This document shows, in pieces, positions 1 to 17,766 of a DNA stretch of 32,264 bases. The stretch is from Ilumatobacteraceae bacterium (GTDB taxonomy: Bacteria > Actinomycetota > Acidimicrobiia > Acidimicrobiales > Ilumatobacteraceae), in the NCBI GenBank assembly GCA_023262325.1, contig JALRBS010000176.1, forward strand, positions 1 through 32,264, read 5' to 3'. Every line of letters starts with the position of its first letter. Position 1 is the stretch's first letter. The position numbers were made by a program, and so were the translations under genes. The notes under the pieces are model-generated. The model saw nothing but the letters and a program-made list of their open reading frames with translations. It was not told where the DNA came from and searched no databases.

Positions 1-798
1 AAGAAAACGCAGCACCAGATCGGACACGCCAAAGTCGAAAAGATTGCTGTGATGGGCGCCGTCAACTGTTCGGAAGACTTTCGGTTCCTGAGCCGCCTCG
101 AACAGCCGGCGGCCTAGCGACATCGGCACGACCGAGTCCAGGTTTCCGTGAAACACCAGAAGCGGTGCGGCGATACCCGCGATCTTGGAAATCGAATGAT
201 ATCTGTCCTTTACCAGCCACCTCGCCGGCAGAAAGGGGTAACGGGACTGCGCCGCGTCGCCCATGGAGGAAAACGGCGCCTCCAGCACCACGGCAGCCAC
301 CGGCGAAGACTTATCCGCCGCACGTTTGGCCATTTCCACCGCCAAACCGGTGCCCAGGGATTCGCCATAGAAAATCCACCTCTCCGGCCCGACGCCGATG
401 CCCTTAAGATAGGCGAGCGCCGCCTCGGCATCATGGTAAAGCCCGGCTTCGGTGGGATTTCCGGGATTGTCTCCAAAGCCGCGGTATCCGACCAGCATGA
501 CGCCGAACCCGGCATCCAGAAACGGCCGCGCCTTGAAGCCGCGGTCGCCGATATGGCCCGCATTGCCGTGAAAATAGACCACCACGGGGCGCTCGCCCGC
601 CGGTGGTGAATACCAGGATTGCAGCGACAGTCCATCCGCCGTGTTCAGGCTCAACGGCGACATTTCCTGCACACCATAGGATGCCGGTGCCGCCAAGTCG
701 CCGCTGGGATGGTACATCAACTGCCGTTGCGAAAAGTACATGATGCCGATCACGCCGGCATAGAGTCCGGCCACCGCCGTCAGCACGGAAGTCAGCAT
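1..798 (-). CDS. Alpha/beta hydrolase (BEM46/ABHD13-like serine hydrolase), C-terminus cut by window edge
   Basis: I read 266 codons with no stop before the left edge, so the C-terminus is outside the window. The protein opens with one hydrophobic N-terminal helix (about residues 4-22, MLTSVLTAVAGLYAGVIGIM), which suggests a membrane anchor. The hydrolase core follows: an oxyanion-hole segment VVVYFHGNAG, a nucleophile elbow GESLGTG with Ser147, an acid segment FHGNLDSVVP, and a histidine segment DGAHHSN near the edge. This is the complete Ser-Asp-His order of the fold. Family members hydrolyse esters, thioesters or lipids; the substrate cannot be deduced here. The ATG at 796-798 is chosen because the hydrophobic anchor starts right after it. 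It lies 49 bp downstream of the lipoprotein gene on the same strand, so co-transcription is possible. It belongs to the left, alphaproteobacterial-like piece. Confidence 0.85.
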   Translation of the reverse strand, partial: MLTSVLTAVAGLYAGVIGIMYFSQRQLMYHPSGDLAAPASYGVQEMSPLSLNTADGLSLQSWYSPPAGERPVVVYFHGNAGHIGDRGFKARPFLDAGFGVMLVGYRGFGDNPGNPTEAGLYHDAEAALAYLKGIGVGPERWIFYGESLGTGLAVEMAKRAADKSSPVAAVVLEAPFSSMGDAAQSRYPFLPARWLVKDRYHSISKIAGIAAPLLVFHGNLDSVVPMSLGRRLFEAAQEPKVFRTVDGAHHSNLFDFGVSDLVLRFL

Positions 799-847
799 GT
801 CTCGGAAAATCGTTCCATTACAGCCGCTTGCACCAGCGCCAGATGAC

Positions 848-1351
848 TCAATTGAAGCTGTCGTTCATCGCCAGCCATTGGCCATTCGCTTGCATGCATG
901 CCGACCCATTGCCGGAGGCGACTCCGTCTTCGAAGACCACCGATGCCCGATACTGCTGGCACGTAGTGCCGTCGGAGCGGCGGTAGCTCGCCATTGTCCG
1001 AACCATGCCACTATGACCGCTTTCCGGATTGTTCCAGTGATAGGGCGTTCCGGGGGTGTTGGACGCGAGCGCTTTGTGGGTGGTCTCGTTGTGAAGCGCC
1101 TGGTCGCGCTGCGACATCATGCGCGCGCCGATGTAACCGATACCGCCGCCAACCATGACACTGGTGGCCGTGAACATGGTCTGCGCCAGGCCGCCACCGA
1201 ATTGCGCGCCGGCATATCCACCAATGGCGGCGCCGCCGAGCGTGCCTGCGACTTCCATCCAATTCATCGAACGGATCCGGTCCGTGGTTTGCGCACAACC
1301 ACTGACGGCGAGCGCGCATACCGTACCGATGATCATTTTCCGAGCTTTCAT
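848..1351 (-). CDS. Glycine-zipper lipoprotein, 17 kDa surface-antigen type
   Basis: 167 residues. The start is an N-terminal signal (MKARKMIIGTVCALAVSGCAQ) with the lipobox VSGC, so the mature protein should be an outer-membrane or periplasmic lipoprotein. Residues about 35-75 are a Gly/Ala-rich two-helix glycine zipper (GTLGGAAIGGYAGAQFGGG, then VMVGGGIGYIGARMM), as in the Rickettsia 17 kDa antigen family. The C-terminal part carries WNNPESGHSG, CQQYRASV and CMQANGQW, the usual surface-antigen domain that ends the family. The ATG at 1351 has AAGGAG 8 nt upstream; a GTG one codon earlier is less likely. This family is typical of alphaproteobacteria, which helps to assign the left piece. The exact cellular role is unknown; members are thought to be structural envelope proteins. 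Confidence 0.85.
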   Translation of the reverse strand: MKARKMIIGTVCALAVSGCAQTTDRIRSMNWMEVAGTLGGAAIGGYAGAQFGGGLAQTMFTATSVMVGGGIGYIGARMMSQRDQALHNETTHKALASNTPGTPYHWNNPESGHSGMVRTMASYRRSDGTTCQQYRASVVFEDGVASGNGSACMQANGQWLAMNDSFN

Positions 1352-1378
1352 CACGTCATCTCCTTCTGGAGCTTCCTG

Positions 1379-1735
1379 TTACGAGCCAATTCTTTCCGCC
1401 GGTCCGACCATTGTCTTTTTCGGGCCGATGCACTCATAAACCGCCGCGACGGGTGTCGTCAGCGGGCAAACATTGTAGTCGGTCTTCGAGAACGCCGCCG
1501 CCCTGCCGTATCGACGGCATTCGTTGACAGCCAACTCCTGGATTGCCGCCGGTGTGGCCTTGCGTTTGTGGTAGCAGACTTGAACCGTCGTCCGATCCTG
1601 GTACCCGTGTACAAAATACTTCGATTCACGATTGAATTCCTCAGCATTGAGCACGTACGGTTCACCGGCACAGCCGAAAATCAGGACCAACGTCGCCAGC
1701 ACACCCACCCGAATCAGAAAACCTTTAGCTATCAT
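1379..1735 (-). CDS. Small predicted lipoprotein of unknown function
   Basis: 118 residues from an ATG at 1735. The N-terminus is basic then hydrophobic (MIAKGFLIRVGVLATLVLIFGCAGE) and ends in a weak lipobox (IFGC), so lipid attachment at Cys is likely but not certain. The mature part is short, with four further cysteines (VCYH, NECRRYG, NVCP, YECIG) that could form disulfides in the periplasm. I do not recognise a family. The frame stays open for 32 more codons upstream, but that extension is not hydrophobic and would bury the signal peptide, so the internal ATG is preferred. It lies 27 bp before the glycine-zipper lipoprotein and 92 bp after putA on the same strand. Confidence 0.65.
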   Translation of the reverse strand: MIAKGFLIRVGVLATLVLIFGCAGEPYVLNAEEFNRESKYFVHGYQDRTTVQVCYHKRKATPAAIQELAVNECRRYGRAAAFSKTDYNVCPLTTPVAAVYECIGPKKTMVGPAERIGS

Positions 1736-1827
1736 ACTGAATCTTAATAAAGAATCGCCAAGAAAAAGACAACTGCATTGTTTTGTCCCCGCAAAAGCGG
1801 CGGAACCGCTGCGGTTGCGAACGCCGG

Positions 1828-4773
1828 TCAATCTTCCAACGACATTAACGCGGCATTGCCGCCGGCCGCCGTGGTATTGACGCTCAACGTACGTTCGACC
1901 GCAAAACGATAGAGATAGCGCGGCCCTCCGGCCTTGGGTCCGGTGCCAGAAAGCCCCTCCCCACCGAACGGCTGCACGCCGACGACGGCACCGATCATGT
2001 TGCGATTGATGTAGGCGTTGCCGGCGTGGACACGGGTGCTGATGTGTTCATGCACGGTGTCGATGCGACTGTGCACACCGAGTGTCAGGCCGTAGCCTGT
2101 TGCATTGATGGCATCGATGACTTCATCCAACGCGGCGGCGTCGAAGCGGATAACGTGCAGGATCGGTCCGAACACCTCACGCTCGAGGACCGCAAGATCG
2201 GCAATCTCGTATGCACGTGGCGCGAAGAAATGACCCTTGTCGAGGCCGTGCGGCAACTTGGCCAGGCAGATCGGTTTACCTGCACTCTCCATCCGCAGGG
2301 CATGGGCTTGGAGTATCGCCTTGGCGTCGGCATCGATCACCGGTCCGACGTCCGTATCGAACATTGCCGGATCGCCGAGTTTCAGTTCCTTCGTCGCGCC
2401 GGCCAGCATGCGGATCACCTTGTCGGCGATGTCGTCCTGCACGAACAACACCCGCAGCGCCGAACAACGCTGACCGGCACTCCGGAATGCCGACAGCACC
2501 GCATCGCCGACGACCTGCTCGGGCAACGCCGTGGAATCCACGATCATCGCGTTTTGCCCGCCTGTCTCCGCGATCAGCGGCACGATCGGGCCGTCGCGGC
2601 CGGCCAGCGCGCGATTAATTGCGCGCGCCGTCTCGGTCGAACCGGTAAAGGCAACGCCATCCACTCGCACATCGGCGACCAGTTTTCCTCCGACTTCGGC
2701 ACCGTCACCGGGCAGCAGGTGGAGAACCTGATCCGGAACGCCTGCCGCGTGCAGCATGTCGACGGCGCGCTGGACGATCAATGGCGTCTGTTCCGCCGGC
2801 TTGGCGGCGACCGCATTTCCGGCGGCAAGGGCCGCGGCGACCTGGCCGGTAAAGATGGCGAGCGGAAAGTTCCACGGGCTGATGCAGGCGAAGGTGCCGC
2901 GACCATGGAGACTGATGGTGTTGGCTTCGCCGGTTGGGCCGGGCAACGCCTGCGGCGCGTTGAAATCCGTTTCCGCACGGGCCGCGTAATAACGCAGGAA
3001 GTCGACCGCCTCTCGCACCTCGGCGATGCCGTCGGCCAGGGTCTTTCCCGCCTCCAGCGCGCAGAGCGCCATCAGTTCCGGGGTCGCCGCTTCCATGGCA
3101 TCGGCGGCACGCTTTAGTACCGCACCGCGGGCGACACCACCCAGACGGTCCCAATCCGGCTGCGCCTTGCGAGCCTGGTCGAGAGCGCGTTCGATATCTT
3201 CGCTGTTTGCGTTTCGGACGGTCCCGACAACGGCCGTGCCGTCTGTCGGACTTATCACCGCCACCTCTTTGCCGCCAAGACCGCTACCGGCCTGCCAAGG
3301 GCCCTTGTGGCGGTCCATGGCTTCGGCCAGGGCGCGCAACGAAGCGCGGTCGTTCAGGTCGATCCCCTTGGCGTTGGCCCGCTCCGGTCCATAGAGGTCG
3401 ACCGGCAGTGGAATCCGAGGATGCGACACCGGGAAGAACCGGGCCACCACGTCGACCGGATCGGCGATAATGTCGTCGATCGGTGCGTCCTGATCGACGA
3501 TGCGATTGACGAAGGAACTGTTGGCACCGTTTTCGAGCAGCCGGCGGACGAGATACGCCAGCAGGTCCTCGTGCGAACCGACCGGCGCATAAATCCGGCA
3601 CGACACAGGCGCTTCTCCAGTGGCGCCGCTGACGACCTGATCGTAAAGCGCCTCGCCCATGCCGTGCAGGCGCTGGAACTCGAAATCCCTTTCGCCGCCC
3701 GCCATCTCCATCACCGCGGCCAACGTGTGGGCGTTATGGGTGGCGAATTGAGGATAGAACAGATTTCGGTTCTCCATCATGAAGCGCGCGCAGGCCAAGT
3801 AGGACAAATCGGTCGACGGCTTTCGCGTGAACACAGGGTATCCGTCTAGCCCTTGTTCCTGCGCGAGCTTAATTTCGGTATCCCAATAGGCGCCCTTGAC
3901 CAACCGAACCATCCATCGGCGACTGTCGCGCCGGGCGATTTCAGCGAGCCACGGCAGAACCGCATGGGCACGCTTCTGGTAAGCCTGCACGGCAAGGCCG
4001 AGACCGTCCCAGCCGGCCAGCGCCGGATCGGCGGAGAGCTTGTCGACGATATCGAGCAAGAGATCGAGCCGCGCCGCCTCCTCGGCATCAATGGTAAAAC
4101 CAATGTTTACGGCCTTGGCCTGAGCGGCCAGTTCGTGCAGTCGCGCATAAAGCTGATCGAGAACCCGGTCGTGATGTGCCAGCTCGTAACGGGGATGCAG
4201 CGCCGACAGCTTGACCGAGATTCCCGGTCCGTCGACAACGCCGCGTCCAGCGGAAGCAGCACCGACCGCCTTGATGGCTGCGGCATAGGCGTCGAGATAA
4301 CGAACAGCGTCGGCGTCGGTTCGCGCGCCTTCGCCCAGCATGTCGAAGGAATGCCGATACCCCTCCTTCTCGTCGTCGCGTGCGCGAGCCAGGCCTTCCT
4401 TGATAGTCCTCCCCATGACGAACTGCCGGCCCATGATCCGCATTGCCTGGACCATGGCCTGCCGGATCACTGGCTCGCCGCTTCGCGCCACCAGCCGGCC
4501 AAAATAGCCGCCGAAATCCATGTCGTTTGGTTGGTCGAGCGCGATCACGCGGCCGTTCAGCATCAACGCCCAGGTCGACGCATTGACGAACAGCGACGAA
4601 CTGTGGCCGAGATGCCCTTCCCAGTCCGCCTCCGCGAGCTTCGATTTGATCAATTTGTCGGCGGTTTCCGTATCGGGAACGCGCAGCAGCGCCTCGGCGA
4701 GACACATCAGGATCACGCCCTCCCGATTGGAAAGCTCGTACTCCTGCAGAAACGCGTCCAGACCGCCCGCACT
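1828..4773 (-). CDS. putA: PutA, bifunctional proline dehydrogenase / P5C dehydrogenase, N-terminus missing
   Basis: Oxidises proline to glutamate in two steps: an FAD-dependent proline dehydrogenase domain, then an NAD-dependent delta-1-pyrroline-5-carboxylate dehydrogenase domain. About 980 residues are visible. The first domain shows EGVILMCLAEALLRVPD, RLVKGAYWDTEIK, FATHNAHT and the proline-binding RRLLENGANSSFV. The second shows SPWNFPLAIF, AETGGQNAMIV, the catalytic Cys in GQRCSALR (codon 2464-2466) and a C-terminal QPFGGEGLSGTGPKAGG. The frame is open past the GTG at 4716 and still matches PutA (AGGLDAFLQEYELSN) up to about 4770, where it runs into the start of mihF on the other strand. 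The true N-terminus is therefore missing. A ribbon-helix-helix repressor domain cannot be judged, but the spacing suggests the shorter form of about 1000 residues. Confidence 0.95.
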   Translation of the reverse strand, partial: SAGGLDAFLQEYELSNREGVILMCLAEALLRVPDTETADKLIKSKLAEADWEGHLGHSSSLFVNASTWALMLNGRVIALDQPNDMDFGGYFGRLVARSGEPVIRQAMVQAMRIMGRQFVMGRTIKEGLARARDDEKEGYRHSFDMLGEGARTDADAVRYLDAYAAAIKAVGAASAGRGVVDGPGISVKLSALHPRYELAHHDRVLDQLYARLHELAAQAKAVNIGFTIDAEEAARLDLLLDIVDKLSADPALAGWDGLGLAVQAYQKRAHAVLPWLAEIARRDSRRWMVRLVKGAYWDTEIKLAQEQGLDGYPVFTRKPSTDLSYLACARFMMENRNLFYPQFATHNAHTLAAVMEMAGGERDFEFQRLHGMGEALYDQVVSGATGEAPVSCRIYAPVGSHEDLLAYLVRRLLENGANSSFVNRIVDQDAPIDDIIADPVDVVARFFPVSHPRIPLPVDLYGPERANAKGIDLNDRASLRALAEAMDRHKGPWQAGSGLGGKEVAVISPTDGTAVVGTVRNANSEDIERALDQARKAQPDWDRLGGVARGAVLKRAADAMEAATPELMALCALEAGKTLADGIAEVREAVDFLRYYAARAETDFNAPQALPGPTGEANTISLHGRGTFACISPWNFPLAIFTGQVAAALAAGNAVAAKPAEQTPLIVQRAVDMLHAAGVPDQVLHLLPGDGAEVGGKLVADVRVDGVAFTGSTETARAINRALAGRDGPIVPLIAETGGQNAMIVDSTALPEQVVGDAVLSAFRSAGQRCSALRVLFVQDDIADKVIRMLAGATKELKLGDPAMFDTDVGPVIDADAKAILQAHALRMESAGKPICLAKLPHGLDKGHFFAPRAYEIADLAVLEREVFGPILHVIRFDAAALDEVIDAINATGYGLTLGVHSRIDTVHEHISTRVHAGNAYINRNMIGAVVGVQPFGGEGLSGTGPKAGGPRYLYRFAVERTLSVNTTAAGGNAALMSLED

Positions 4774-4782
4774 TGCGAAGGC
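4758..4782. other. Probable chimeric junction between two genomes
   Basis: Two convincing coding sequences on opposite strands both lose their N-terminal parts here. On the minus strand PutA is recognisable up to about 4770. On the plus strand the mIHF homologue is recognisable from about 4766 (PALAKAAQARTARAAIKARLK) with no start codon of its own. The exact breakpoint is hidden in a short shared stretch. Everything left resembles alphaproteobacterial DNA with strongly GC-rich third positions; everything right resembles an actinobacterium. A joined reading frame running across the point (4520-5038, plus) is an accident of the join. Confidence 0.8.
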
Positions 4783-5038
4783 AGCTCAGGCGCGTACTGC
4801 TCGGGCAGCAATCAAGGCGCGACTGAAGAATCAGACGTTGTCGCTGAAAGACGCTCTCGACTCGACCGATGAACACATCGGAAAGTTGAAGGTTGTCGCG
4901 CTACTCGAGTCGCTGCCAAAGGTTGGCAAAGTAAAAGCACGCCGCATGATGGATGAAATTGGCATCGCCCCAAATCGAAGGGTGCAGGGCCTCGGGACAC
5001 AGCAGCGTTCAGCGCTGCTCGAACGACTCGGTGACTAA
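4766..5038 (+). CDS. mihF: Actinobacterial integration host factor mIHF, N-terminus missing
   Basis: About 90 residues of a ~105-residue nucleoid-associated protein that bends DNA and is essential in mycobacteria. Visible are the helical N-terminal part (ALAKAAQARTARAAIKARLK), the core KLKVVALLESLPKVGKVKARRMMDEIGIA, and the DNA-contacting end RRVQGLGTQQRSALLERLGD. The core contains the helix-hairpin-helix-like SLPKVGKVKA. The usual first ~12 residues are absent because the sequence is interrupted at the junction with putA. It overlaps gmk by 8 bp (its GAC-TAA end lies within GTG-ACT-AA), the standard actinobacterial order mihF-gmk-rpoZ. Confidence 0.88.
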   Translation, partial: PALAKAAQARTARAAIKARLKNQTLSLKDALDSTDEHIGKLKVVALLESLPKVGKVKARRMMDEIGIAPNRRVQGLGTQQRSALLERLGD

Positions 5039-5597
5039 TTCAGGTAGTCCGCTCATCGTTGTGGTCTCAGGACCTGGCGGGGTTGGGAAAGGAACGATCG
5101 TCGATCGTCTCATCGAGCAGGACGAACGCCTGTGGTTGAGTCGATCCTGGACGACTCGGGAGCGTCGCGAGGGCGAATCGGCAGACGCCTACACGTTCTG
5201 CGCTCCACAACAGTTCGAAGAACGAATTGCAACGAACGGTTTCCTCGAGTGGACCGAATTTCTTGGGAACTACTACGGAACACCAGTTCCCGACCTTGAT
5301 GGCCTCGATGGTCGCGATGTCGTGCTCGAGATTGAACTTGATGGTGCCCGCCAGGTGAAGGCGAGGTTTCCGGAAGCCATTCTGATCTTCCTTCTTCCGC
5401 CATCGCGGGAGGAACAGGAGCGTCGCCTACGCGGTCGAGGCGATGCCAATGACAAGGTCTTCGCTCGCCTTCGAAAAGCCGAGCTCGAAGAGCCGCTCGG
5501 CAAAGCGCTCGCCGATTACGTGCTCGTCAACGATGATCTCGATGGCACCGTTCGTGAGATGGTGTCGGTGATCGCAGCGGAGCGTTCTCGACGTTGA
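5031..5597 (+). CDS. gmk: Guanylate kinase
   Basis: 188 residues; phosphorylates GMP to GDP with ATP in the cytoplasm. The P-loop GPGGVGKGT is at residues 14-22. The GMP-binding region SRSWTTRERREGE, the block VLEIELDGARQVK and the lid-side GRGDANDKVFARL follow in normal order. The GTG at 5031 is chosen because it overlaps the mihF stop and places the P-loop at the usual distance from the N-terminus. Upstream in-frame starts would lie inside mihF. It probably depends on translational coupling, since no Shine-Dalgarno sequence is visible. Confidence 0.95.
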   Translation: MTNSGSPLIVVVSGPGGVGKGTIVDRLIEQDERLWLSRSWTTRERREGESADAYTFCAPQQFEERIATNGFLEWTEFLGNYYGTPVPDLDGLDGRDVVLEIELDGARQVKARFPEAILIFLLPPSREEQERRLRGRGDANDKVFARLRKAELEEPLGKALADYVLVNDDLDGTVREMVSVIAAERSRR

Positions 5598-5603
5598 CGG
5601 CGG

Positions 5604-5616
5604 TACACTCCCGGTG
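5604..5616 (+). promoter_or_regulatory. Putative leaderless promoter of rpoZ
   Basis: A -10-like TACACT at 5604-5609 ends exactly 6 nt before the rpoZ GTG at 5616. No Shine-Dalgarno lies between them, so the transcript would begin at the start codon. No clear -35 is seen. Confidence 0.5.
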
Positions 5617-5927
5617 TGCCACAGACGAATGAAACAATGATGACGCCTCGAATCGAAGGTCTTCTTGACCGCGTCGATTCGAAGTTCAGCCTCGTCACCT
5701 TGGCAGCACGTCGCGCCCGGGATATCAACTCGTATTTCAACCAACTTGGTGGTGGTCTCGGACACATGGTTCCGCCGCAGGTGTCGTCGACGGCTCGTAA
5801 GCCACTCAGCGTCGCATTCGAAGAGATTTCAGCCGACAAAATTGTGTGGGGCGAGCCAGTCGAAGAGGTTGCCGATCTCGATCTCCCCGTCGGCGAGGGT
5901 TACGACGCCGAGGGTTCTGACGACTGA
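5616..5927 (+). CDS. rpoZ: RNA polymerase omega subunit
   Basis: 103 residues; the small subunit that supports beta' folding and RNA polymerase assembly. The conserved core RIEGLLDRVDSKFSLVTLAARRARDIN is followed by the actinobacterial insertion NSYFNQLGGGLGHMVPPQV, then RKPLSVAFEEISADKIVW and an acidic tail. The GTG at 5616 is favoured because it sits 6 nt after a -10-like hexamer (a leaderless arrangement). ATGs at 5637 and 5640 (MMTPRIEG) are alternatives and would give a 96- or 95-residue protein. It lies 18 bp after gmk and 7 bp before coaBC. Confidence 0.92.
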   Translation: MPQTNETMMTPRIEGLLDRVDSKFSLVTLAARRARDINSYFNQLGGGLGHMVPPQVSSTARKPLSVAFEEISADKIVWGEPVEEVADLDLPVGEGYDAEGSDD

Positions 5928-5934
5928 GAACGTC

Positions 5935-7158
5935 ATGCTGTCGGGCAAGCGAATCGTCCTCGGCGTGAGCGGCGGCATCGCTGCCTACAAATCTGTTGAG
6001 TTGTGCCGACGTCTCGTCGACGCTGGTGCCCACGTCACACCGGTAATGACCGCTGGTGCAGAGCACTTCATTGGTCGCACGACGTTGAGCGCGCTTGCGA
6101 GTGAACCGGTTCGCACAAGTTTGTGGGACGGCCCGGATCCAATTCCGCACACGACGCTTGGCCAGCAGGCCGATCTCATCGTCGTCGCTCCAGCAACCGC
6201 AAGGGTGATAGCGGCGTATGCGCATGGGTTGTCCACCGACCTGCTCACGAACGCGTTGATCGCAACACGAGCACCCGTGATCGTTTGCCCAGCGATGCAC
6301 ACCGAGATGTGGGAGCACGCAGCGGTACAAGCGAATATTCGAACGTTGCGGGAGCGCGGCGTCATCATTGTCGACCCCGAGGAAGGTCGGCTTGCGGGTG
6401 GAGATATCGGCAAAGGACGACTTGCAAATATTGATTCGATCGCCGATGTTGTTCACCGAACGCTCGCCATACGCGATCTCGAAGGTGTCAAGGTGCTCGT
6501 CACCGCCGGTGGCACGCGTGAACCGATCGATGCTGTTCGAGTCATCGCGAATCGGTCCTCGGGCAAGCAGGGGCATGCGATTGCCGCCGAATGCAGTCGA
6601 CGCGGTGCGATGGTGACCCTAGTGACCACATCGCACCTCGATCATCCATCATCGATCGAACGCGTCGACGTTGAGACGGCCGCGCAAATGCAGCAGGCTC
6701 TCGACGTACACGCAGCGGCTCACGACGTCATCATCATGTCGGCCGCCGTTGCAGATTTCAGACCGGTGAACCCAGCGGGTGAAAAATTGAAGAAGGATCG
6801 TGGTGCTCCCGAGCTGTTGCTCGAGCCGACTCCAGACCTCCTGTTGCACCTTGGTGCAGCGAAGCAGCCGCATCAGGTACTCGTCGGATTTGCTGCTGAA
6901 ACCAGCAACCTTGCCGAGAACGCCCGTTCGAAACTCGTCCGGAAGAACCTTGACCTTGTTGTTGCGAACGATGTGAGCGCCGAAGGGGTTGGGTTCTCGC
7001 ACGATACAAACGCGGTCACGTTGGTGGCCGCAGACGGTGACCGGACGATCGGTCTCTGTTCGAAAGCGAAGATTGCCGAGGCTGTCGTTGATGAAATCGC
7101 TAAGATTCGCCTCGCGATGCGCCCGGCAGATGCCAGACGCGTCGACCCCACCACATAA
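5935..7158 (+). CDS. coaBC: CoaBC: phosphopantothenoylcysteine decarboxylase / phosphopantothenate-cysteine ligase
   Basis: 407 residues; performs two consecutive steps of coenzyme A synthesis. The N-terminal FMN-dependent decarboxylase domain (about 1-180) has GVSGGIAAYKS, a PHTTL segment with the likely catalytic His72, and PAMHTEMW (119-126) for substrate binding. The flap that reads ACGD in E. coli Dfp reads AGGD at 154-157, so the catalytic Cys is absent at that position. The C-terminal ligase domain (about 185-400) has VLVTAGGTREPIDAVR, NRSSGKQG, MSAAVADF and KLKK. The ATG at 5935 puts the glycine-rich loop at residue 10. The frame is open further upstream but only antiparallel to rpoZ coding information. 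Confidence 0.95.
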   Translation: MLSGKRIVLGVSGGIAAYKSVELCRRLVDAGAHVTPVMTAGAEHFIGRTTLSALASEPVRTSLWDGPDPIPHTTLGQQADLIVVAPATARVIAAYAHGLSTDLLTNALIATRAPVIVCPAMHTEMWEHAAVQANIRTLRERGVIIVDPEEGRLAGGDIGKGRLANIDSIADVVHRTLAIRDLEGVKVLVTAGGTREPIDAVRVIANRSSGKQGHAIAAECSRRGAMVTLVTTSHLDHPSSIERVDVETAAQMQQALDVHAAAHDVIIMSAAVADFRPVNPAGEKLKKDRGAPELLLEPTPDLLLHLGAAKQPHQVLVGFAAETSNLAENARSKLVRKNLDLVVANDVSAEGVGFSHDTNAVTLVAADGDRTIGLCSKAKIAEAVVDEIAKIRLAMRPADARRVDPTT

Positions 7159-7170
7159 GCCCGCAACGCC

Positions 7171-7191
7171 CCTGCTAGAGGGCTGAGCAGG
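7171..7191 (+). promoter_or_regulatory. Weak inverted repeat after coaBC
   Basis: Arms CCTGCT (7171-7176) and AGCAGG (7186-7191) around a 9-nt loop, 12 bp after the coaBC stop. There is no run of T after it, so it is not a convincing intrinsic terminator. Confidence 0.3.
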
Positions 7192-7200
7192 CACCAAAAC

Positions 7201-7221
7201 GACGTCGACAATTGCGACGTC
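7201..7221 (+). promoter_or_regulatory. Perfect inverted repeat upstream of metK
   Basis: Arms GACGTCG (7201-7207) and CGACGTC (7215-7221) flank the 7-nt spacer ACAATTG. The arms are exact complements. The element lies 28 bp before the metK start and 16 bp before its Shine-Dalgarno. It could be an operator for a dimeric repressor or an RNA hairpin in the metK leader; the sequence alone does not decide. Confidence 0.45.
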
Positions 7222-7249
7222 CGCCAATCTGTTAACCGGAGGAGTCGAC

Positions 7250-8437
7250 GTGGCCCGTTGGACATTTACATCTGAGAGTGTGACCGAAGGTCACCCGGAC
7301 AAAGTTGCTGACCAGGTCAGTGACGCGATCCTTGACGCAATTCTTGAGGTTGACCCAAAGGGTCGTGTCGCGTGCGAGACGCTCGTAACGACTGGATTGT
7401 GCGTTGTCGCCGGCGAAATCACGACATCGGAATATGTCGAGATCCCGAAGATTGTTCGTAAGACCATCACCGACATCGGTTACGACGATGCAAATGCTGG
7501 ATTTGATGGCAACACCTGCGGCGTCATTGTCTCGATCGACGAGCAAAGTGCTGACATCGCGCAAGGCGTGAATGCATCCGAAGAAGTGCGCAGCTCGGGC
7601 TCAACTGATGACGACCTCGATCTTCAGGGCGCTGGTGACCAGGGCATGATGTTCGGTTTCGCTTGCGACGAAACGCCAGCTTTGATGCCGCTTCCGATTT
7701 GGACGGCTCACCGTATGGCTGAACGACTCGCCGAGGTTCGTCATAAGGGTCAGGTTCCGTATCTTCGCCCAGATGGCAAAACTCAGGTGACGTTCGAATA
7801 CGAAGATGGCCGACCGGTTGCGTTGAAGAACGTTGTCATTTCGACCCAACACCAAGATGGCGTGGATCGTGACACGGTCATTCGTCCGGACCTCATTGAG
7901 CAGGTCATTGCTCCGGTGGTGCCCGAGCAGTTTGCAAACGATGAGTACGAGATTTTCATTAACCCGACTGGACGTTTCGTCATCGGTGGACCGCAGGGTG
8001 ACTGTGGGCTGACGGGTCGAAAGATCATCGTCGATACCTACGGTGGTATGGGCCGACATGGCGGAGGCGCATTCAGTGGCAAGGACCCATCGAAGGTTGA
8101 CCGATCTGCTGCGTACGCCGCCCGTTGGGTTGCGAAGCACGTTGTTGCGTCGGGCGCTGCGCGTAGGTGCGAACTGCAGGTTGCCTACGCGATCGGCGTT
8201 GCGCACCCAATGAGCATCCTCGTCGACACCTTCGGCACGGAAACGGTCGATCCCGATCGCATCGTCGCTGCGGTTCGCGATGTGTTTGACCTTCGCCCTG
8301 GCGCGATTGTTCGCGACCTCGACCTTCTTCGTCCCGGTTACCAGCGAACCGCCGCCTACGGCCACTTCGGTCGCGAAGGGTTTACTTGGGAGACCCTGTC
8401 GCGACTCGACGAGTTCAAGTCTGCAGTCGGCGTGTGA
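7250..8437 (+). CDS. metK: S-adenosylmethionine synthetase
   Basis: 395 residues; makes S-adenosylmethionine from methionine and ATP. The signature blocks are present in order: [22 protein letters not shown] near the N-terminus (ATP and Mg site), [16 protein letters not shown] (methionine and ATP site), then [23 protein letters not shown] (P-loop-like phosphate binding). Length is normal for the family. The GTG start at 7250 is supported by GGAGG at 7238-7242. Its stop codon is followed immediately by the priA GTG, so the two are probably translated from one message. SAM made here also supplies RsmB, the RsmC-like and the TrmH-like enzymes of this window. Confidence 0.97.
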
Positions 8438-10174
8438 GTGTCGGCGCCTGATCGAACCATTGCCCGCGTACTCTGCGACGCGTCTGGCCCCGATCGGGCG
8501 TTTGACTACGAAGTTCCGCCGACTCTCGTCGGAACAATTGAAATCGGTACGCAGGTCCGGGTAGATCTCAACGGTCGTCGTATTGGCGGATGGGTTGTGG
8601 CAATCGAGTCGAGTCGAGACTCGATCGACCGAGAACTTCTTCCAATTCGAAAAGTGTCGGGCGTCGGCCCCGACGAAGAAGTCGTTGAGGTTTCTCGATG
8701 GGCGGCGCATCGCTGGGCCGGTCGATGGTCACACTTTCTGAGGGCTGCCTCTCCGCCGCGTCACGTGACACGTGTTGGTGCATCGCTTCGAACGGTGATG
8801 AGCCCGGAACCACGATCACCGGCTACCACACGTGCCTTAGTCGCAGGGGGCGCGGTGTTGCGACTGCCGCCAACATCCGATGTGCTCCCGGCCGTCTGGA
8901 GTTGCCTGCAACGGGGGTCGGTGCTGGTGCTCGTTCCAGGCATCGATGACGCCAAGGTGCTCGCCGCTCGTGTGCGGCGAGCCGGTTCGAGTGTGGCGCT
9001 CCTTCCCGATGAGTGGGCACGTTCGGCGGCCGGCGTTGACGTTGTCATCGGCACCCGCACAGCGATTTTTGGTCGATGTACCGATCTTCAATCGGTGCTC
9101 ATTATCGATGAGCACGATGAGCGTTATTACTCGGAGGCCTCGCCAACCTGGAACGCTCGCGATGTCGCGGTCGAACGATGTCGACGCCTCAGCATTCCGC
9201 TCGTGCTTATTTCGTCGGTTCCGAGCCCGGAGGCGGCGGTTGATCGCGAAATCATTGCGCCGAGTCGCGACCGTGAGGTTGCGGGATGGCCGAACATCGT
9301 CGTCGCGCCACTGCGTGATGATGCCGCTCCCGCTGTCGGCCGACTTTCATCGGAGGTCATTGCCGAACTTCGCGACCAGCAACGACGGGTGTTGTGCATT
9401 GCGAACACCTCCGGTCGATCGGCTCTGCTTTCGTGTCGCGCCTGTAGCGAACTGGTCCGTTGCGAGCACTGTGATGCCATTGTGAGTCAGCGTTCGGATG
9501 CGCAACTTTCGTGCCGTGTGTGCGGTTCCGAACGTCCGGCGGTGTGTGTCTCGTGTGGATCTACCGCATTGCTCAATCTGCGCCCTGGAGTTCGACGCCT
9601 CGTTGAGGAGCTCGCAGCGGCGGGAAACCGTGAAGCTCGAGTCATCGAGGGCGATGAAGAGCCGAGTTGGAAAGACGGCGCTGTGAGCGCAGAGATCATC
9701 GTGGGCACCGAAGCACTGCTGCACCGAATCCGGTTTGCCGAATCAGTTGTATTTCTCGATTTTGAACGTGAACTTTTCGCACCGCGAATGCGTGCGGTGC
9801 AGCACGCGAGTGAACTTGTGGCGCGCGCCGCACGGATTGTGGGCCGCGTCGCCGATGGCGGGCGGGTTGTGTTGCAAGTTGATCACCGTGGTCACCCGTT
9901 GGTCGAGGCGTTGAGTCGCGTTGATCCCGCTGCGGTGACCGAACACGAGATCGCAACGCGCAAGATGCTGTCGCTGCCACCATTCGGTTCGGTTGCGTTC
10001 ATCGAAGGTCACGGCGCGCAGGAATTTGTCGCCCATGTTCAAGGCGATGTGATGGTCGGCGGGCTCGGCGAATCGGTCCAGGTGCGAGCCACCTCGGCTG
10101 AGTTGCTCGCGGATGCCTTGGCGCACGGTGTTCGTCCGGCTCGAGGCCGCCTTCGAGTTGCAGTCGATCCGTAG
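8438..10174 (+). CDS. priA: Primosomal protein N' (PriA), degenerate actinobacterial form
   Basis: 578 residues, shorter than the ~730 of E. coli PriA. The N-terminal DNA-binding domain (about 1-110) recognises the 3' end of stalled forks in family members. The helicase core has lost its Walker A loop: where GETGSGKT is expected the sequence reads RLPPTSDVLP. A DEAH-like IDEHDE survives. A zinc module with eight cysteines (CRAC, CEHC, CRVC, CVSC, about residues 333-370) is intact, and the C-terminal domain follows. Actinobacterial PriA proteins are known to lack helicase motifs and probably act as a primosome scaffold only. The GTG directly abuts the metK stop. Confidence 0.9.
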   Translation: MSAPDRTIARVLCDASGPDRAFDYEVPPTLVGTIEIGTQVRVDLNGRRIGGWVVAIESSRDSIDRELLPIRKVSGVGPDEEVVEVSRWAAHRWAGRWSHFLRAASPPRHVTRVGASLRTVMSPEPRSPATTRALVAGGAVLRLPPTSDVLPAVWSCLQRGSVLVLVPGIDDAKVLAARVRRAGSSVALLPDEWARSAAGVDVVIGTRTAIFGRCTDLQSVLIIDEHDERYYSEASPTWNARDVAVERCRRLSIPLVLISSVPSPEAAVDREIIAPSRDREVAGWPNIVVAPLRDDAAPAVGRLSSEVIAELRDQQRRVLCIANTSGRSALLSCRACSELVRCEHCDAIVSQRSDAQLSCRVCGSERPAVCVSCGSTALLNLRPGVRRLVEELAAAGNREARVIEGDEEPSWKDGAVSAEIIVGTEALLHRIRFAESVVFLDFERELFAPRMRAVQHASELVARAARIVGRVADGGRVVLQVDHRGHPLVEALSRVDPAAVTEHEIATRKMLSLPPFGSVAFIEGHGAQEFVAHVQGDVMVGGLGESVQVRATSAELLADALAHGVRPARGRLRVAVDP

Positions 10175-10176
10175 GT

Positions 10177-10764
10177 TTAGCGTTGTACGTGGAGCAATCG
10201 AAAGCCTTTTCGAGAACTCACCCTGGCGACGTTCCAACCGTGCTGAGTGAGCCAGTCGTGTAACGAATCTGCGCCAAGGTGCCGTTGCACGACGAGATAT
10301 GCCTCGCCCTGCTCAGTGAGACGATCGAGCCACACCTGCAACATGTCATGTAAGGCGGTTTTGCCGATGCGAATTGGCGGGTTTGACCAGATGAGGTCGA
10401 CCCGTAACGCGTCTGGGACCTCGTCGGGGTGCATTGTGGTGATGTCAACGTTGACCCGACGCGCATTGGTGGCGGTGAGTTGACGTGCCCGATCATTCGT
10501 GTCGACCGCGACAATGTGGGCCTCGGGGGAACGTAATCCGAGGGTGAGCGCAATTGGACCGGCGCCGCATCCGAGGTCGACGAGCACCCCATGGGATGGC
10601 GGTGGGGGAGCCTCCTGCAGCAGCACGGCGGTACCGCTGTCGAGTTCACCATGGCTAAACACCCCTCGATCGGTTTCGTACGAAAACGCGACGTCATGCA
10701 ACATGACTTCAACCGTGCGTCGGTCGCTTGCTGATGCCTGGTTCGAGTCGAAGTAATGCGACAT
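10177..10764 (-). CDS. Class I SAM-dependent methyltransferase, RsmC-like
   Basis: 195 residues. The single methyltransferase domain carries the SAM-binding loop VDLGCGAGPIALTLG, the acidic strand end AHIVAVDTND and the catalytic loop SNPPIRIGK, which is the NPP(F/I) motif of N2-guanine or N6-adenine RNA methyltransferases. Closest in type to the C-terminal half of RsmC (16S rRNA m2G1207); one-domain versions are common in actinobacteria. The target is inferred from the family. The ATG at 10764 (MSHYFDSN) has TGGAG 4 nt upstream and removes a basic, unlikely N-terminal extension. Its 3' end is 2 bp from that of priA, and it is divergent from def. Confidence 0.85.
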   Translation of the reverse strand: MSHYFDSNQASASDRRTVEVMLHDVAFSYETDRGVFSHGELDSGTAVLLQEAPPPPSHGVLVDLGCGAGPIALTLGLRSPEAHIVAVDTNDRARQLTATNARRVNVDITTMHPDEVPDALRVDLIWSNPPIRIGKTALHDMLQVWLDRLTEQGEAYLVVQRHLGADSLHDWLTQHGWNVARVSSRKGFRLLHVQR

Positions 10765-10899
10765 GCAACTCCAGCATTGTCGAATTTGCTTGGAGAAGGG
10801 TTGATTGCACGCCTCCGGTGGGCGACAACGCGCGGCGAGTCGGTGAAGTCCAGATGCTTGTTCGTCGCATTCTTCTCCTGCGTCGCCGCTATGCAGCGG

Positions 10900-10912
10900 T
10901 AAACTTGAGGGA
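10900..10912 (+). promoter_or_regulatory. Putative leaderless promoter of def
   Basis: TAAACT at 10900-10905 ends 6 nt before the def ATG. The GAGGG that touches the ATG is too close to serve as a ribosome site. The remaining 147-bp divergent space back to 10764 contains no recognised element. Confidence 0.55.
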
Positions 10913-11442
10913 TGGCACACGAAATTCGCACCTTTGGTGATCCTGTGCTGAAGTCGAACGCCTCGCCGGTAACTGACATTGACGGCAAACTCATCCGCCT
11001 TGTTGACGAAATGTTCGAAACGCTCGAGTCAAGCAACGGTGGAATTGCCCTCGCTGCGCCACAGATTGGTGTGCAGAAGCAGGTATTTGTCTGGGACCTT
11101 GACGAAGGACGTGAAGTGATTTTCAACCCAGAAATCGCCGAATCTGATGGCGAGTGGGTGTATGACGAGGGGTGCCTCTCGATTCCAGGTCTTTATGTTG
11201 AGATCGTCCGTCCTCGCAACGTGCTGCTTAAAGGAATCGATCTCAATGGCAACGAGGTCACCCGAGAAGCGACTGACCTCGAAGCCCGCATGTACCAGCA
11301 CGAACTTGATCACCTCCACGGTGTATTGATGTTCGACCGCATGACCGGTGATCAGCGATCAGAAGCGCTTGCGGAATATCGACGACTCACGAGTGAGGAA
11401 ACAACATCCGCACGACAGCCACGTCGGCTTCGCTTGAGGTGA
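10912..11442 (+). CDS. def: Peptide deformylase
   Basis: 176 residues; removes the formyl group from nascent N-formylmethionine, with a divalent metal. The three signature motifs are clear: GIALAAPQ at 44-51 (Ala in place of the second Gly of the usual GxGLAAxQ), EGCLS at 86-90 with the metal-binding Cys88, and QHELDHLHG with metal ligands His130 and His134 and catalytic Glu131. A basic tail (RQPRRLRLR) ends the protein. It heads an operon with fmt (GTGA overlap), rsmB and a MoaB-like gene. Fmt adds the formyl group that this enzyme removes. Confidence 0.96.
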   Translation: MAHEIRTFGDPVLKSNASPVTDIDGKLIRLVDEMFETLESSNGGIALAAPQIGVQKQVFVWDLDEGREVIFNPEIAESDGEWVYDEGCLSIPGLYVEIVRPRNVLLKGIDLNGNEVTREATDLEARMYQHELDHLHGVLMFDRMTGDQRSEALAEYRRLTSEETTSARQPRRLRLR

Positions 11443-12251
11443 ACGCCAGCGAATCGATCGCGTTTCTTGGTTCGCCCGAGGTCTCAGCGTCGACCCTGAC
11501 TGCACTGCACGAAGCAGGTCACAAGATTTCGCTCGTTGTGACGGCTCCTGAGCGTCGTCGTGGTCGTGGTGGCGCGACCTCAGCAACGCCGGTCGGTGAA
11601 ATCGCCCAAGCGCTCGGTATTCCGGTCAGTCACAACGTTGCTGACGTTGTCGACGCGGGTGCGACGCTTGGCGTTGTCGTTGCCTTTGGACAGATCATCC
11701 GGCCGCACATTCTCGATCGCGTCCCAATGGTCAACATCCACTTCTCGTTGTTGCCACGTTGGCGTGGAGCGGCCCCTGTTGAACGTGCGATGCTCGCCGG
11801 CGACGCCGAGACGGGCGTGTGCATCATGGAGGTCGTCGAAGCGCTTGATGCCGGCGGTGTGTACGCCTCGACTCGGGTACCAATCGGCGACCGGTCGGCA
11901 CACGAGTTGACAACAGAGCTTGGTCGGTGTGGCACGTCACTATTGCTCGACTGTTTGACACGTGGCTTTGGACGTCCTGAACCGCAGCAGGGTGAGGTCA
12001 CCTACGCCGCGAAAATATTGGCCGACGACCTTCGCCTCGATTGGTCGGAACCAGCCGAAGTGTCGATGCGGCAGATTCGTGTCGGCGGCGCGTGGACGAC
12101 CTTTCGCGGCGAGCGCTTTCGAATCCATGATGCGCGGATTGAAGCCGGAATCCTCGTGCCGGTTCGGGTTCAGCCCGCCGGAAAGCAGGTACTCAAATTT
12201 GATGATTGGGCGCGAGGGGCTCGGCTCGTCGAGAGCGAATGGTTTCTGTGA
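11439..12251 (+). CDS. fmt: Methionyl-tRNA formyltransferase
   Basis: 270 residues, somewhat shorter than the usual ~310, mainly in the C-terminal tRNA-binding domain. It formylates initiator Met-tRNA with 10-formyl-tetrahydrofolate. The N-terminal fold begins IAFLGSPEVSASTLTAL. The catalytic block is VNIHFSLLPRWRGAAPVERAM with the Asn and His of the active site, followed by the Asp of AGDAETGVCIMEV. The GTG at 11439 overlaps the def stop as GTGA, and its own stop overlaps the rsmB start in the same manner. Confidence 0.95.
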   Translation: MNASESIAFLGSPEVSASTLTALHEAGHKISLVVTAPERRRGRGGATSATPVGEIAQALGIPVSHNVADVVDAGATLGVVVAFGQIIRPHILDRVPMVNIHFSLLPRWRGAAPVERAMLAGDAETGVCIMEVVEALDAGGVYASTRVPIGDRSAHELTTELGRCGTSLLLDCLTRGFGRPEPQQGEVTYAAKILADDLRLDWSEPAEVSMRQIRVGGAWTTFRGERFRIHDARIEAGILVPVRVQPAGKQVLKFDDWARGARLVESEWFL

Positions 12252-13372
12252 CGACGGCTCGCGAACTCGCACTCGACCTATTACGCCGTATCGACGAAGA
12301 AGGTGCCTATGCGAATCTCGTCGTACCCTCGGCACTGTCGCGCGCGACGTTGTCGAAAGCCGATCGAGCCCTTGTCACCAATCTCGTCTACGGCACGACA
12401 CGAATGCGACGGGCGTGCGACGCGATTGCCCAGCGATTCATTGCTGAACCACCTGATGCCTCGACCGCGCGCTTGCTCCGGCTCGGCGTGTACCAGTGGG
12501 GCTGGGGTGGTATCGCCCCGCATGCCGCTGTTCACGAAACGGTGTCCCTAGCGCCCCGACGAACGAAAGGTTTCGTCAACGCGGTGTTACGAAAGGTCGT
12601 CGCAGGGGCGACTCCAGATGACGTCGCGTGGCCGTCGGATTCGGTTCGTCTCAGCATGCCCGATTGGCTCGTTGAACGACTGGTGAGCGAACTCGGGCAA
12701 CACGATGCCATTGCCGCCTGCGAGCGCATGAATCAGCCGCCCCCCGTGACAACACGTGAGGACGGATACACCCAAGATGTCGCATCCGCTTGGGTGGCTC
12801 AGGCCGTCGGGGGTCGCGCTGGTGAGCGAATTCTTGACGTGTGTGCAGCTCCGGGAGGTAAAGCGACTCTCATCGCCAGCACGGGCGCGTATGTCGTCGC
12901 AGCAGATCGGCGACCTCACCGGGCGTCGCTCGTGCAATCAAACCGCGCCGCTGTTGGCCTCGCACCGTCGTCCCTCTCGGTCGTTACGTGTGACGGGCTT
13001 GCTCCGTCGTATCGACCTGAGTCCTTTGATGCCGTCCTCCTCGACGCTCCCTGTTCGGGACTCGGCTCATTGCGGCGGCGGGCCGACGCGCGATGGCGAA
13101 TCCTGCCGTCAGATATTGAGATCCTCGTCGAACTGCAAAAGGGTCTTCTCAATTCGTGCGCGGCACTCGTCGCGCCCGGGGGTCGACTCGTCTACAGCGT
13201 GTGCACCGTGACGGCGGCAGAGTCGATAGAGCACGTCGTTCCCGCAGATTTTGAGATCGACCCAACGCCACCTGAGGGTGTTTGGCGTCCCTTTGGACAC
13301 GGTTGGCGGGTACTGCCACAAGATGCTGACACCGATGGCATGGTGCTCGTGCGGTACCGTCGATCGAGATGA
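12248..13372 (+). CDS. rsmB: 16S rRNA m5C methyltransferase RsmB (Sun/Fmu)
   Basis: 374 residues. The N-terminal NusB-like RNA-binding domain (about 1-130) has ARELALDLLRRIDEEGAYAN and FVNAVLRKV. The C-terminal methyltransferase domain has the SAM loop ILDVCAAPGGKATLIA, the motif IV DAPCSG (266-271, Cys269) and the motif VI YSVCT (Cys319, the nucleophile). In E. coli the family methylates C967 of 16S rRNA. The start is ambiguous: GTG at 12248 overlaps the fmt stop (GTGA), as at other joins here; ATG at 12239 is three codons earlier. Confidence 0.94.
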   Translation: MTTARELALDLLRRIDEEGAYANLVVPSALSRATLSKADRALVTNLVYGTTRMRRACDAIAQRFIAEPPDASTARLLRLGVYQWGWGGIAPHAAVHETVSLAPRRTKGFVNAVLRKVVAGATPDDVAWPSDSVRLSMPDWLVERLVSELGQHDAIAACERMNQPPPVTTREDGYTQDVASAWVAQAVGGRAGERILDVCAAPGGKATLIASTGAYVVAADRRPHRASLVQSNRAAVGLAPSSLSVVTCDGLAPSYRPESFDAVLLDAPCSGLGSLRRRADARWRILPSDIEILVELQKGLLNSCAALVAPGGRLVYSVCTVTAAESIEHVVPADFEIDPTPPEGVWRPFGHGWRVLPQDADTDGMVLVRYRRSR

Positions 13373-13842
13373 GCAGCCTGTTCGCCAAAGTGCTGACCGT
13401 GAGCGACGGCGTTGCGCATGGTGCTCGTGATGACACCGGCGGTCGAGGGGTGCGCGATTTTCTCGTTGCGCACGACTTCAGTGTCGTTGATCATCGTGTC
13501 GTTGCCGACGGAGTCGACACGGTCGCCGCTGCGCTTATCGAGATGTCCGATGGTTATAGCGGTCTCATTGCGACGACGGGGGGAACAGGTTTTGCCCCAC
13601 GCGACCTCACTCCTGAGGGAACCTTGAGCGTTGTTGAACGAGTGGCGCCCGGTATTGCTGAAGCGATGCGGGCGATCAGCCCCTTCGGTCGTCTGTCTCG
13701 CGGCGTCTGTGGCATCAGGGGGCGTGCGATCATCTGCAATCTGCCCGGTTCACCCAAGGGCGCGGTTGAACAACTCGGCGCGGTAATTGACGTGTTGCCG
13801 CACGCGCTCGCGCTTCTCGCCAATGAGCCGACAGAGCACTGA
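13369..13842 (+). CDS. MoaB/Mog-family molybdopterin-binding protein
   Basis: 157 residues. One MoCF-binding domain: the N-terminal KVLTVSDGVAHGARDDTGG, the central molybdopterin-binding TTGGTGFAPRDLTPEGT, and a C-terminal ICNLPGSPKGAVEQ. In Mog-type proteins this domain adenylylates molybdopterin; in MoaB the activity varies, so the exact step of molybdenum cofactor synthesis is left open. The ATG overlaps the rsmB stop (ATGA), making it the last gene of the def operon. No other molybdenum cofactor gene is in this window. Confidence 0.88.
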   Translation: MSSLFAKVLTVSDGVAHGARDDTGGRGVRDFLVAHDFSVVDHRVVADGVDTVAAALIEMSDGYSGLIATTGGTGFAPRDLTPEGTLSVVERVAPGIAEAMRAISPFGRLSRGVCGIRGRAIICNLPGSPKGAVEQLGAVIDVLPHALALLANEPTEH

Positions 13843-13858
13843 GGCGATCGTTCGCCGT

Positions 13859-13872
13859 TAGCCTCATCGCCG
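13859..13872 (+). promoter_or_regulatory. Putative leaderless promoter of hisG
   Basis: TAGCCT at 13859-13864 ends 7 nt before the hisG GTG at 13872. No Shine-Dalgarno precedes the GTG. Confidence 0.45.
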
Positions 13873-14744
13873 TGTTGCGCGTCGTACTCCCAAAGGGCTC
13901 CCTCGAAAAGGCAACCTTCGAACTCTTCGAAGCTGCCGACCTGGCCGTCGTGCGTTCCTCGAGCGTCGACTACCGGGCTTCAATCGATGATCCGCGAGTG
14001 CACGAGGTTCGGATTCTTCGACCACAAGAAATCCCGGTCTATGTCGCAGAGGGCCTATTTGACGTCGGAATTACAGGTCGAGATTGGGTTGAAGAGACGT
14101 CGAGTGACGTGGTGAGTCTGGGTGAGTTGCGCTACTCGAAAGCAACCTCGAATCCGGTCAAGGTTGTCGTTGCGGTGGCTGGCGACTCGCCCTACGAGTC
14201 GGTCGCTGATCTGCCCAATGGTGTTCGTGTGACCTCCGAATACCCCGAGATGACGCGCCGATTCTTCGCCGAACGTGGAGTTGAAGCGGATGTTCGGCTC
14301 TCGTACGGTGCGAGCGAGGCGAAAATCCCTGACATTGCGGATTGTGTTGTCGACATCACCGAGACGGGCCGCGCTTTGAAAGCGGCGGGGCTCCGTGTCA
14401 TTGACACGATCCTCACGAGCTTTACCGAAGTGGTTGCGAATCCAAAGTCGTACGAGGACCCCGACCGGCGACGTGCAATGGAGCAGCTCATGATCCTGCT
14501 GAATGGTGCGCTCGATGCACGCGGCAAGGTTCTGTTGAAACTGAACGTTCCCGCGAACCTGTGCGATGCAGTCGTCGGTATCCTGCCTGCCGCCAAAAGT
14601 CCCACAGTGAACCAATTGGCGAATGGCGATTTTGCCGTCGAAACAGTCGTCGCAAAATCAGAAATCAATCGGCTGATTCCGGCGTTGTCCGAGGCCGGCG
14701 CGACCGATCTCATCGAGTTGCCAATTTCAAAGATCGTGCCGTGA
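13872..14744 (+). CDS. hisG: ATP phosphoribosyltransferase, long form
   Basis: 290 residues; first committed step of histidine synthesis, joining PRPP to ATP. The N-terminal LRVVLPKGSLEKAT and the PRPP loop region DCVVDITETGRALKAAGLR are typical. The length and the C-terminal segment (ILPAAKSPTVNQLANGDFAVETVV and ALSEAGATDLIELPISKIVP) mark the long form, which carries its own ACT-like histidine feedback domain and does not need HisZ. The GTG at 13872 is preferred; a TTG one codon later is possible. No other his gene is adjacent. The next gene overlaps its stop. Confidence 0.95.
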   Translation: MLRVVLPKGSLEKATFELFEAADLAVVRSSSVDYRASIDDPRVHEVRILRPQEIPVYVAEGLFDVGITGRDWVEETSSDVVSLGELRYSKATSNPVKVVVAVAGDSPYESVADLPNGVRVTSEYPEMTRRFFAERGVEADVRLSYGASEAKIPDIADCVVDITETGRALKAAGLRVIDTILTSFTEVVANPKSYEDPDRRRAMEQLMILLNGALDARGKVLLKLNVPANLCDAVVGILPAAKSPTVNQLANGDFAVETVVAKSEINRLIPALSEAGATDLIELPISKIVP

Positions 14745-14965
14745 TGCCGGTATTGCGTGACGGCATAACTGCGAGCGCAATCGTCACGTCATTCGATGAA
14801 GTTGTCGGTCTTGGAACCGTCGATGTCGATGGCGTGATGCTTGGCTTTCATTGTGTCGCCATCGCCGATGGCTCGCGCGTCATCGACGTTGGTGCAGCCG
14901 TTCGCGTCACCCTCGGCCGCCGATTTGGCGCGCTCGAAGCGTTGTCGGTCGCAACACAGGATTGA
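14744..14965 (+). CDS. Cold-shock-domain-like small protein
   Basis: 73 residues resembling the cold-shock (CspA-like) fold: an opening IVTSFDEVVGLGTVDVDG in place of the RNA-binding strands, then LGFHCVAIADGSRVIDVGAAVRVTL and a closing LGRRFGALEAL. The FHC-IADG-R-I-VG-V pattern is seen in a group of actinobacterial cold-shock-like proteins. Binding of RNA or single-stranded DNA is inferred; classical RNP1 (KGFGFI) is replaced by VGLGTV. It starts at ATG 14744, sharing one base with the hisG stop (a GTG at 14741 is also in frame). It lies 4 bp before the ATL gene. Confidence 0.72.
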   Translation: MPVLRDGITASAIVTSFDEVVGLGTVDVDGVMLGFHCVAIADGSRVIDVGAAVRVTLGRRFGALEALSVATQD

Positions 14966-14969
14966 CCCG

Positions 14970-15263
14970 TTGACACCGCAGGAACTATCGGCACGGCTGG
15001 CTGATGTGATTCGCATGCTCGGCGCTGGCGAAGTGGTCTCATACGGTGACATCGCGAAGGTTGCTGGAGCCCCTCGTCAAGCACGACTTGTCGGACGGGT
15101 GCTTGCCACGACGAGTGGGCTGCCATGGTGGCGAGTTGTGAACGCACAGGGTCGCCTCGTGCCGGGAGCAGAGCAGGAGCAGCGGCGACTCCTTGAGGCT
15201 GAAGGTGTCGTTGTGGACGGGAATCGTGTTGTCGCAGCGGCAGTGGGTAGGTTCGCTCGATAA
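14970..15263 (+). CDS. Alkyltransferase-like protein (ATL, MGMT family without catalytic Cys)
   Basis: 97 residues. It matches the DNA-binding domain of O6-alkylguanine-DNA alkyltransferases (VVSYGDIAKVAGAPRQARLVGRVLATT) and the recognition turn GLPWWRVVNAQGRLVPG at 51-67. Where MGMT has the alkyl-accepting PCHR, this protein has PWWR, so it cannot take up alkyl groups. Known ATL proteins bind alkylated guanine and recruit nucleotide excision repair. Start: the TTG at 14970 gives the usual length; the first in-frame ATG (15015) would cut into the domain. It is convergent with the DUF1844 gene, 28 bp apart, with no terminator seen between. Confidence 0.85.
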   Translation: MTPQELSARLADVIRMLGAGEVVSYGDIAKVAGAPRQARLVGRVLATTSGLPWWRVVNAQGRLVPGAEQEQRRLLEAEGVVVDGNRVVAAAVGRFAR

Positions 15264-15291
15264 CTGGTCCGATCATCGTCCGCGGCAGCGG

Positions 15292-15615
15292 TTACTGGTC
15301 GGCGATGGTCTGTTTCACCTGTACGAACGCCATTCGGATATTTGCGAGTGCAGCCTCGAGGGTCGCTGACTCCTCGCCGAGCCGGCCGCGTAGTCCTTCG
15401 ACGATGCAGGCAAAGGCATCGATGGCGAGTGCCGCGGCGCTGAGATTGGGTGGGTCTGACGACAGGTGAATGGCACCGAGCTCGTAGAGGCCTACCGCAT
15501 GGTTCGTGACGACGGTTTCGACTGGTGCTGCAGCGACTCGTGCCCGCGCCTCGTGAAGTTCGCTGTCGATCGCGCGGAACTCGTCCTCGTTGAAGTCGTC
15601 GGTTTCATCGCTCAC
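15292..15615 (-). CDS. DUF1844 family protein
   Basis: 107 residues, predicted cytoplasmic. The N-terminus is acidic (MSDETDDFNEDEFRAID). The DUF1844 core is NHAVGLYELGAIHLSSDPPNLSAAALAIDAFACIVEGL, followed by a helical C-terminus. Function is unknown. In many actinobacteria a DUF1844 gene sits beside infC, as here (divergent), which suggests a link with translation but proves nothing. The GTG at 15615 is preferred because a -10-like TACGCT ends 7 nt upstream of it. Confidence 0.8.
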   Translation of the reverse strand: MSDETDDFNEDEFRAIDSELHEARARVAAAPVETVVTNHAVGLYELGAIHLSSDPPNLSAAALAIDAFACIVEGLRGRLGEESATLEAALANIRMAFVQVKQTIADQ

Positions 15616-15628
15616 CGGCGCTAGCGTA
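15616..15628 (-). promoter_or_regulatory. Putative leaderless promoter of the DUF1844 gene
   Basis: On the minus strand TACGCT (plus coordinates 15623-15628) ends 7 nt before the GTG at 15615. No Shine-Dalgarno is seen. Confidence 0.5.
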
Positions 15629-15634
15629 CCTTCC

Positions 15635-15651
15635 GGTCAGTTTCGCTGACC
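15635..15651 (+). promoter_or_regulatory. Inverted repeat in the DUF1844-infC divergent region
   Basis: Arms GGTCAG (15635-15640) and CTGACC (15646-15651) with a TTTCG loop. It lies just upstream of the DUF1844 -10 and about 145 bp before infC. It may be an operator or the 5' hairpin of a long infC leader. No clear infC promoter was identified in 15616-15796. Confidence 0.3.
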
Positions 15652-16604: not shown

Positions 16605-16642
16605 TTCCGTAGCCCACTAGAGAACGAACGAGGAGAAAGAAC

Positions 16643-17760: not shown

Positions 17761-17766
17761 GAGTCG

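Follow-up and report, generated by a model that had tools for sequence, protein, structure and literature searches.

Misassembly yields chimeric contigs and is a rarer event than mis-binning, according to the GUNC paper (PMC8201837). The contig analysed in this study, C19, is like the chimeric contigs described there (PMC8201837), as two distant lineages occupy one contig in a bin whose scores (96.69% complete, 2.04% contamination) satisfy the usual quality filters. Compared with that account we see no difference in kind; what differs is that the true partner contig, C40, belongs to the same bin and fixes the position of the break to a single base. The window is the whole of C19 (32,264 bases), one of 221 contigs in a bin of 2,230,599 bases (2.23 Mb). 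We conclude, with a probability of about 0.97, that C19 arose by misjoining in a draft assembly of metagenome type, in which an alphaproteobacterial segment (1-4766) was attached at 4766|4767 to the mihF-gmk region of the actinobacterium that accounts for the rest of the bin. Its parts are as follows, G083 being a genome of one alphaproteobacterial order.

1..4766, no strand: foreign left arm, alphaproteobacterial (composition outlier; gene order in relatives; PutA distribution)
1..798, minus: alpha/beta hydrolase gene, truncated at the edge of the contig (Pfam Hydrolase_4 and others; 59% identity to G083)
848..1354, minus: 17 kDa outer membrane surface antigen gene (Pfam 17kDa_Anti_2; 60% identity to G083)
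1379..1831, minus: small conserved ORF adjoining putA (no Pfam match; 48% identity to G083 across 84% of its length)
1828..4766, minus: 5'-truncated putA (positions 64-1042 of 1042 in the NCBIfam PutA model; Pfam Pro_dh and Aldedh; frame open to 4785 within mihF sequence)
4766..4767, no strand: false join (the window matches C40 from 4767 onwards to the right and is unrelated to it on the left; in other genomes of the family, homology begins no further left than 4761)
4767..5038, plus: mihF, lacking codons 1-13 and the first base of codon 14 (NCBIfam actino_IHF; gene start on C40)
4767..4865, plus: segment shared with the end of C40, which is the true neighbour on the left (single mismatch at 4831)
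4767..32264, no strand: right arm, native to the actinobacterial bin and reaching from mihF and gmk as far as tyrS and the beginning of a 16S rRNA gene (collinearity of 26 of 27 ORFs in all 4 relatives compared; 16S start at 32131)

Opposite the 17-kDa antigen gene, in antisense, is a further open frame of 316 amino acids (797-1747, plus strand); neither Pfam nor NCBIfam gave a match to it, and it is probably not a gene.

Two truncated genes meet at the break. The putA frame runs on the minus strand from 1828 to its open edge at 4785, and its match to the NCBIfam bifunctional PutA model begins only at position 64 (of 1042), which leaves the protein short of about 63 N-terminal residues. On the plus strand, a mihF fragment without a start, ending at 5038, is matched by the actinobacterial IHF model. 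A second match to this fragment in the bin, identical across 32 residues, lies at the start of C40 on the minus strand. At the DNA level, bases 1-99 of C40 correspond to window 4767-4865 (99 bases) with one mismatch, at 4831. On the left side of 4767, C40 and the window bear no relation to each other, and the point of divergence is 4766|4767. Measured against C40, the C19 fragment has lost 13 complete codons plus the first base of codon 14, and when the two contigs are joined they encode a complete mIHF of 103 residues with an ATG start. Upstream of mihF, C40 carries a pyrimidine operon, with matches to dihydroorotate dehydrogenase, to both the large and the small chain of carbamoyl-phosphate synthase, to a dihydroorotase-type amidohydrolase, to an aspartate/ornithine carbamoyltransferase and to a phosphoribosyltransferase; we read these ORFs as pyrD-carB-carA-pyrC-pyrB-pyrR. 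A preliminary description of this DNA had held that putA and mihF lose their 5' coding sequence at one point on opposite strands, somewhere within 4758-4782; the profile matches and the comparison with C40 bear this out, and the divergence from C40 narrows the junction to a single position in that interval. The same description spoke of two essential or core genes neatly destroyed. Both are indeed truncated at one point in C19, but C40 and C19 taken together give an intact mihF, so no core gene was destroyed.

The location of the C40 match is singular among the contig ends compared. We compared contig ends in 82 of the 221 contigs, C19 and C40 included; 21 consisted entirely of N and were dropped, leaving 61 contigs and 114 ends, with eight contigs read to 20 kb only. 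Four end-to-end overlaps were found (94, 102, 131 and 155 bases, with 0, 0, 0 and 6 mismatches), and the remaining matches fall within ~350 bases of a contig end. The sole end among the 114 that lies deep within another contig is the start of C40, at 4835 of the 32,264 bases of C19; the left arm of C19 is therefore false, and C40 is the true neighbour. The right arm thus has its true continuation elsewhere in the assembly. We considered whether the 99-base overlap with C40 reflects a fixed assembler k-mer (k=99) and dropped this idea, because overlap lengths vary among the other pairs (94, 102, 131 and 155 bases) and because there is a mismatch within the one involving C40. As a side observation, the far end of C40 (L019) and the start of contig C4 (L118) share 94 bases without a mismatch, and there are overlaps of C13 with C48 (102) and C65 (131); scaffolding of the bin could be extended through these three overlaps.

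The composition of the left arm sets it apart from the rest of the bin. Against a reference of 60 other unmasked contigs, its tetranucleotide z-score correlation with the bin is 0.21, while 96 bin windows of equal size have a mean of 0.64 (SD 0.07, minimum 0.43), none of the 96 being as far off; five windows from the right arm give 0.49 to 0.71. Plain tetranucleotide frequency distance agrees (0.33 for the left arm versus a maximum of 0.25). The G+C content, 0.62 on the left and 0.59 on the right, is by itself a weak sign.

Both the sequence and the gene order of the left arm point to Alphaproteobacteria. Its PutA has 53-68% identity to PutA of many Proteobacteria, and the best match, 74%, is to G083, in whose order 153 of 317 genomes were matched and which includes a Rhodospirillales MAG (L089, G019) and Caenispirillum salinarum (L034, G020). 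In G083 itself, putA, the small ORF, the 17-kDa antigen gene and the hydrolase gene are arranged as in the window (4 of 4). All three neighbours occur in window order at 5 of 20 putA loci of this order; the other loci have fewer, partly because their flanks are short (~1.5 kb). Among a wider, first set of 92 putA loci, many of them gammaproteobacterial or short-flanked, L089 alone matched the hydrolase and the small ORF, and none matched the 17-kDa antigen.

These same loci show where homology to PutA stops. In 91 of the 92 the match begins at query residue 1-9 (bases 4785-4759), and the remaining locus, L082, is cut by its own contig edge. In the putA genes of the 20 relatives from the order of G083, the open frame carries on upstream at the place where the window turns into mihF sequence.

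A near-identical source of the left arm was not found in the collections searched. A protein search of a genome contig collection, with 80 loci kept, gave 53-67% identity; a protein search of the order of G018 matched 16 of 17 genomes (E up to 1e-200) at 54-67%; and a DNA search of the family of G083 matched 35 of 48 genomes, the best long pieces reaching ~72% over 1.3 kb. Among 213 plasmid records matched at the DNA level, none covers 80% of the query, and in the best 20 of the 213 the match ends by 4775. Since no near-identical genome was found, the left arm's own continuation was not seen, and none was found in the bin.

The right arm, by comparison, belongs to the actinobacterial family. 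A mihF gene was found in 14 of the 16 genomes of the genus, our own included (G004 and G010 gave no match), and the order pyrD-mihF-gmk occurs at 9 of 9 same-genus loci, that is, in 9 of the 13 relatives with a mihF match, with pyrD cut by the contig edge at one of the nine (L015). Four relatives have long contigs; in each of them collinearity with the window holds for 26 of the 27 right-hand ORFs tested, and none of the four left-hand ORFs was found in the stretches compared. The segment 4600-4930 was matched in 31 of 150 sampled family genomes, our own included; in all 30 others the match begins at 4761 or further right, so none enters the left arm beyond a few bases. Full-length PutA was found in 1 of 150 sampled family genomes, which is the window itself, at a cut-off (E up to 1e-100) that leaves out unrelated aldehyde dehydrogenases, of which the bin has six with weaker matches to PutA (25-31% identity). 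The left arm is foreign to the actinobacterial lineage, and two arms of different lineage meet at one point. Composition, the PutA survey and gene order in relatives thus uphold the earlier assignment of the left piece to Alphaproteobacteria and of the right piece to Actinobacteria. The diagnosis of a chimeric contig or amplification artefact is likewise sustained by the presence of the true neighbour of mihF in the bin, by the lack of full-length PutA in the other 149 family genomes sampled and by the result for a related genome sharing the junction, of which there is none among the 30 others matched.

Could the junction instead be real, with an alphaproteobacterial segment inserted by horizontal transfer into mihF in some cells, and C40 representing the cells without it? 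The one base at which C40 and C19 differ could mark two such strains. At position 4831, 64 bases from the join, the window has T and C40 has C, a synonymous difference in an Asn codon. A sequence variant therefore exists there, which a second strain might have contributed; variation between strains would fit, and so would an error in a read of low coverage bridging a false join. On the other hand, an inserted island at the same place in a relative was not seen in the 30 matching family genomes, which match only from 4761 rightward; repeats of 12 bases or more were not found at 4500-5050; and the left ORFs scanned contain no mobile-element family. Moreover, the left arm retains an alphaproteobacterial gene order with unrelated housekeeping genes, putA and mihF are cut at one base, and none of the other 149 family genomes sampled has PutA. 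We therefore regard a real insertion as very improbable. Still less credible to us is that a minority of the actinobacterium's cells carry alphaproteobacterial DNA joined into mihF, represented in the assembly as a second path. A PutA-mIHF fusion would place both domains in one frame on one strand, and here the two genes lie on opposite strands. The preliminary description warned against claims of horizontal transfer or of such a fusion, and we agree, given the lack of a shared island, of edge repeats and of mobile genes, and the opposed strands; neither of these, nor a gene disruption, should be claimed from C19.

Under the preferred reading of a misjoined contig, two unrelated ends would have been bridged either by a chimeric read or amplicon or in the course of scaffolding or gap filling. 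The arms share only a short stretch at the join, as the window and C40 are unrelated left of 4767 and PutA homology ends within a few residues, and overlap assembly alone would presumably need a longer one; a chimeric read or amplicon, or pair-based scaffolding or gap filling, is thus probably likelier than overlap assembly alone. We give slightly better than even odds to a chimeric DNA molecule, formed during amplification or library preparation, that bridged the two genomes and was then assembled, bearing in mind that the trace left by pair-based scaffolding or by gap filling would look no different and that overlaps of 94-155 bases between contigs were left unresolved in this bin. Those overlaps, irregular in length (94, 102, 131 and 155 bases) and with several joins not made, speak for a purely computational join through scaffolding or gap filling, a somewhat doubtful but serious candidate, against which the shortness of the shared stretch counts.

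The junction is of no biological import and matters for data hygiene. Because the bin has good quality scores, an automatic survey could wrongly attribute to the species a PutA that degrades proline, as well as a 17-kDa surface antigen and a broken mihF. C19 needs to be split between 4766 and 4767, and its right part set beside C40.

Two observations concern the remainder of the right arm. A 16S rRNA gene starts directly after tyrS (32131-32264, plus strand) and the contig stops inside it; its continuation beyond 32264 was not found by a DNA search of the bin's genome. At 27928-28716 (minus strand), a LigB-type dioxygenase gene lies between ORFs that adjoin each other in four same-genus relatives. 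As this ORF is missing from 4 of 4 relatives, a second misjoin was considered there and rejected, since the gene was matched in 66 of 200 sampled family genomes, our own among them, including two same-genus relatives at 53-60% identity, which indicates a lineage-variable gene.
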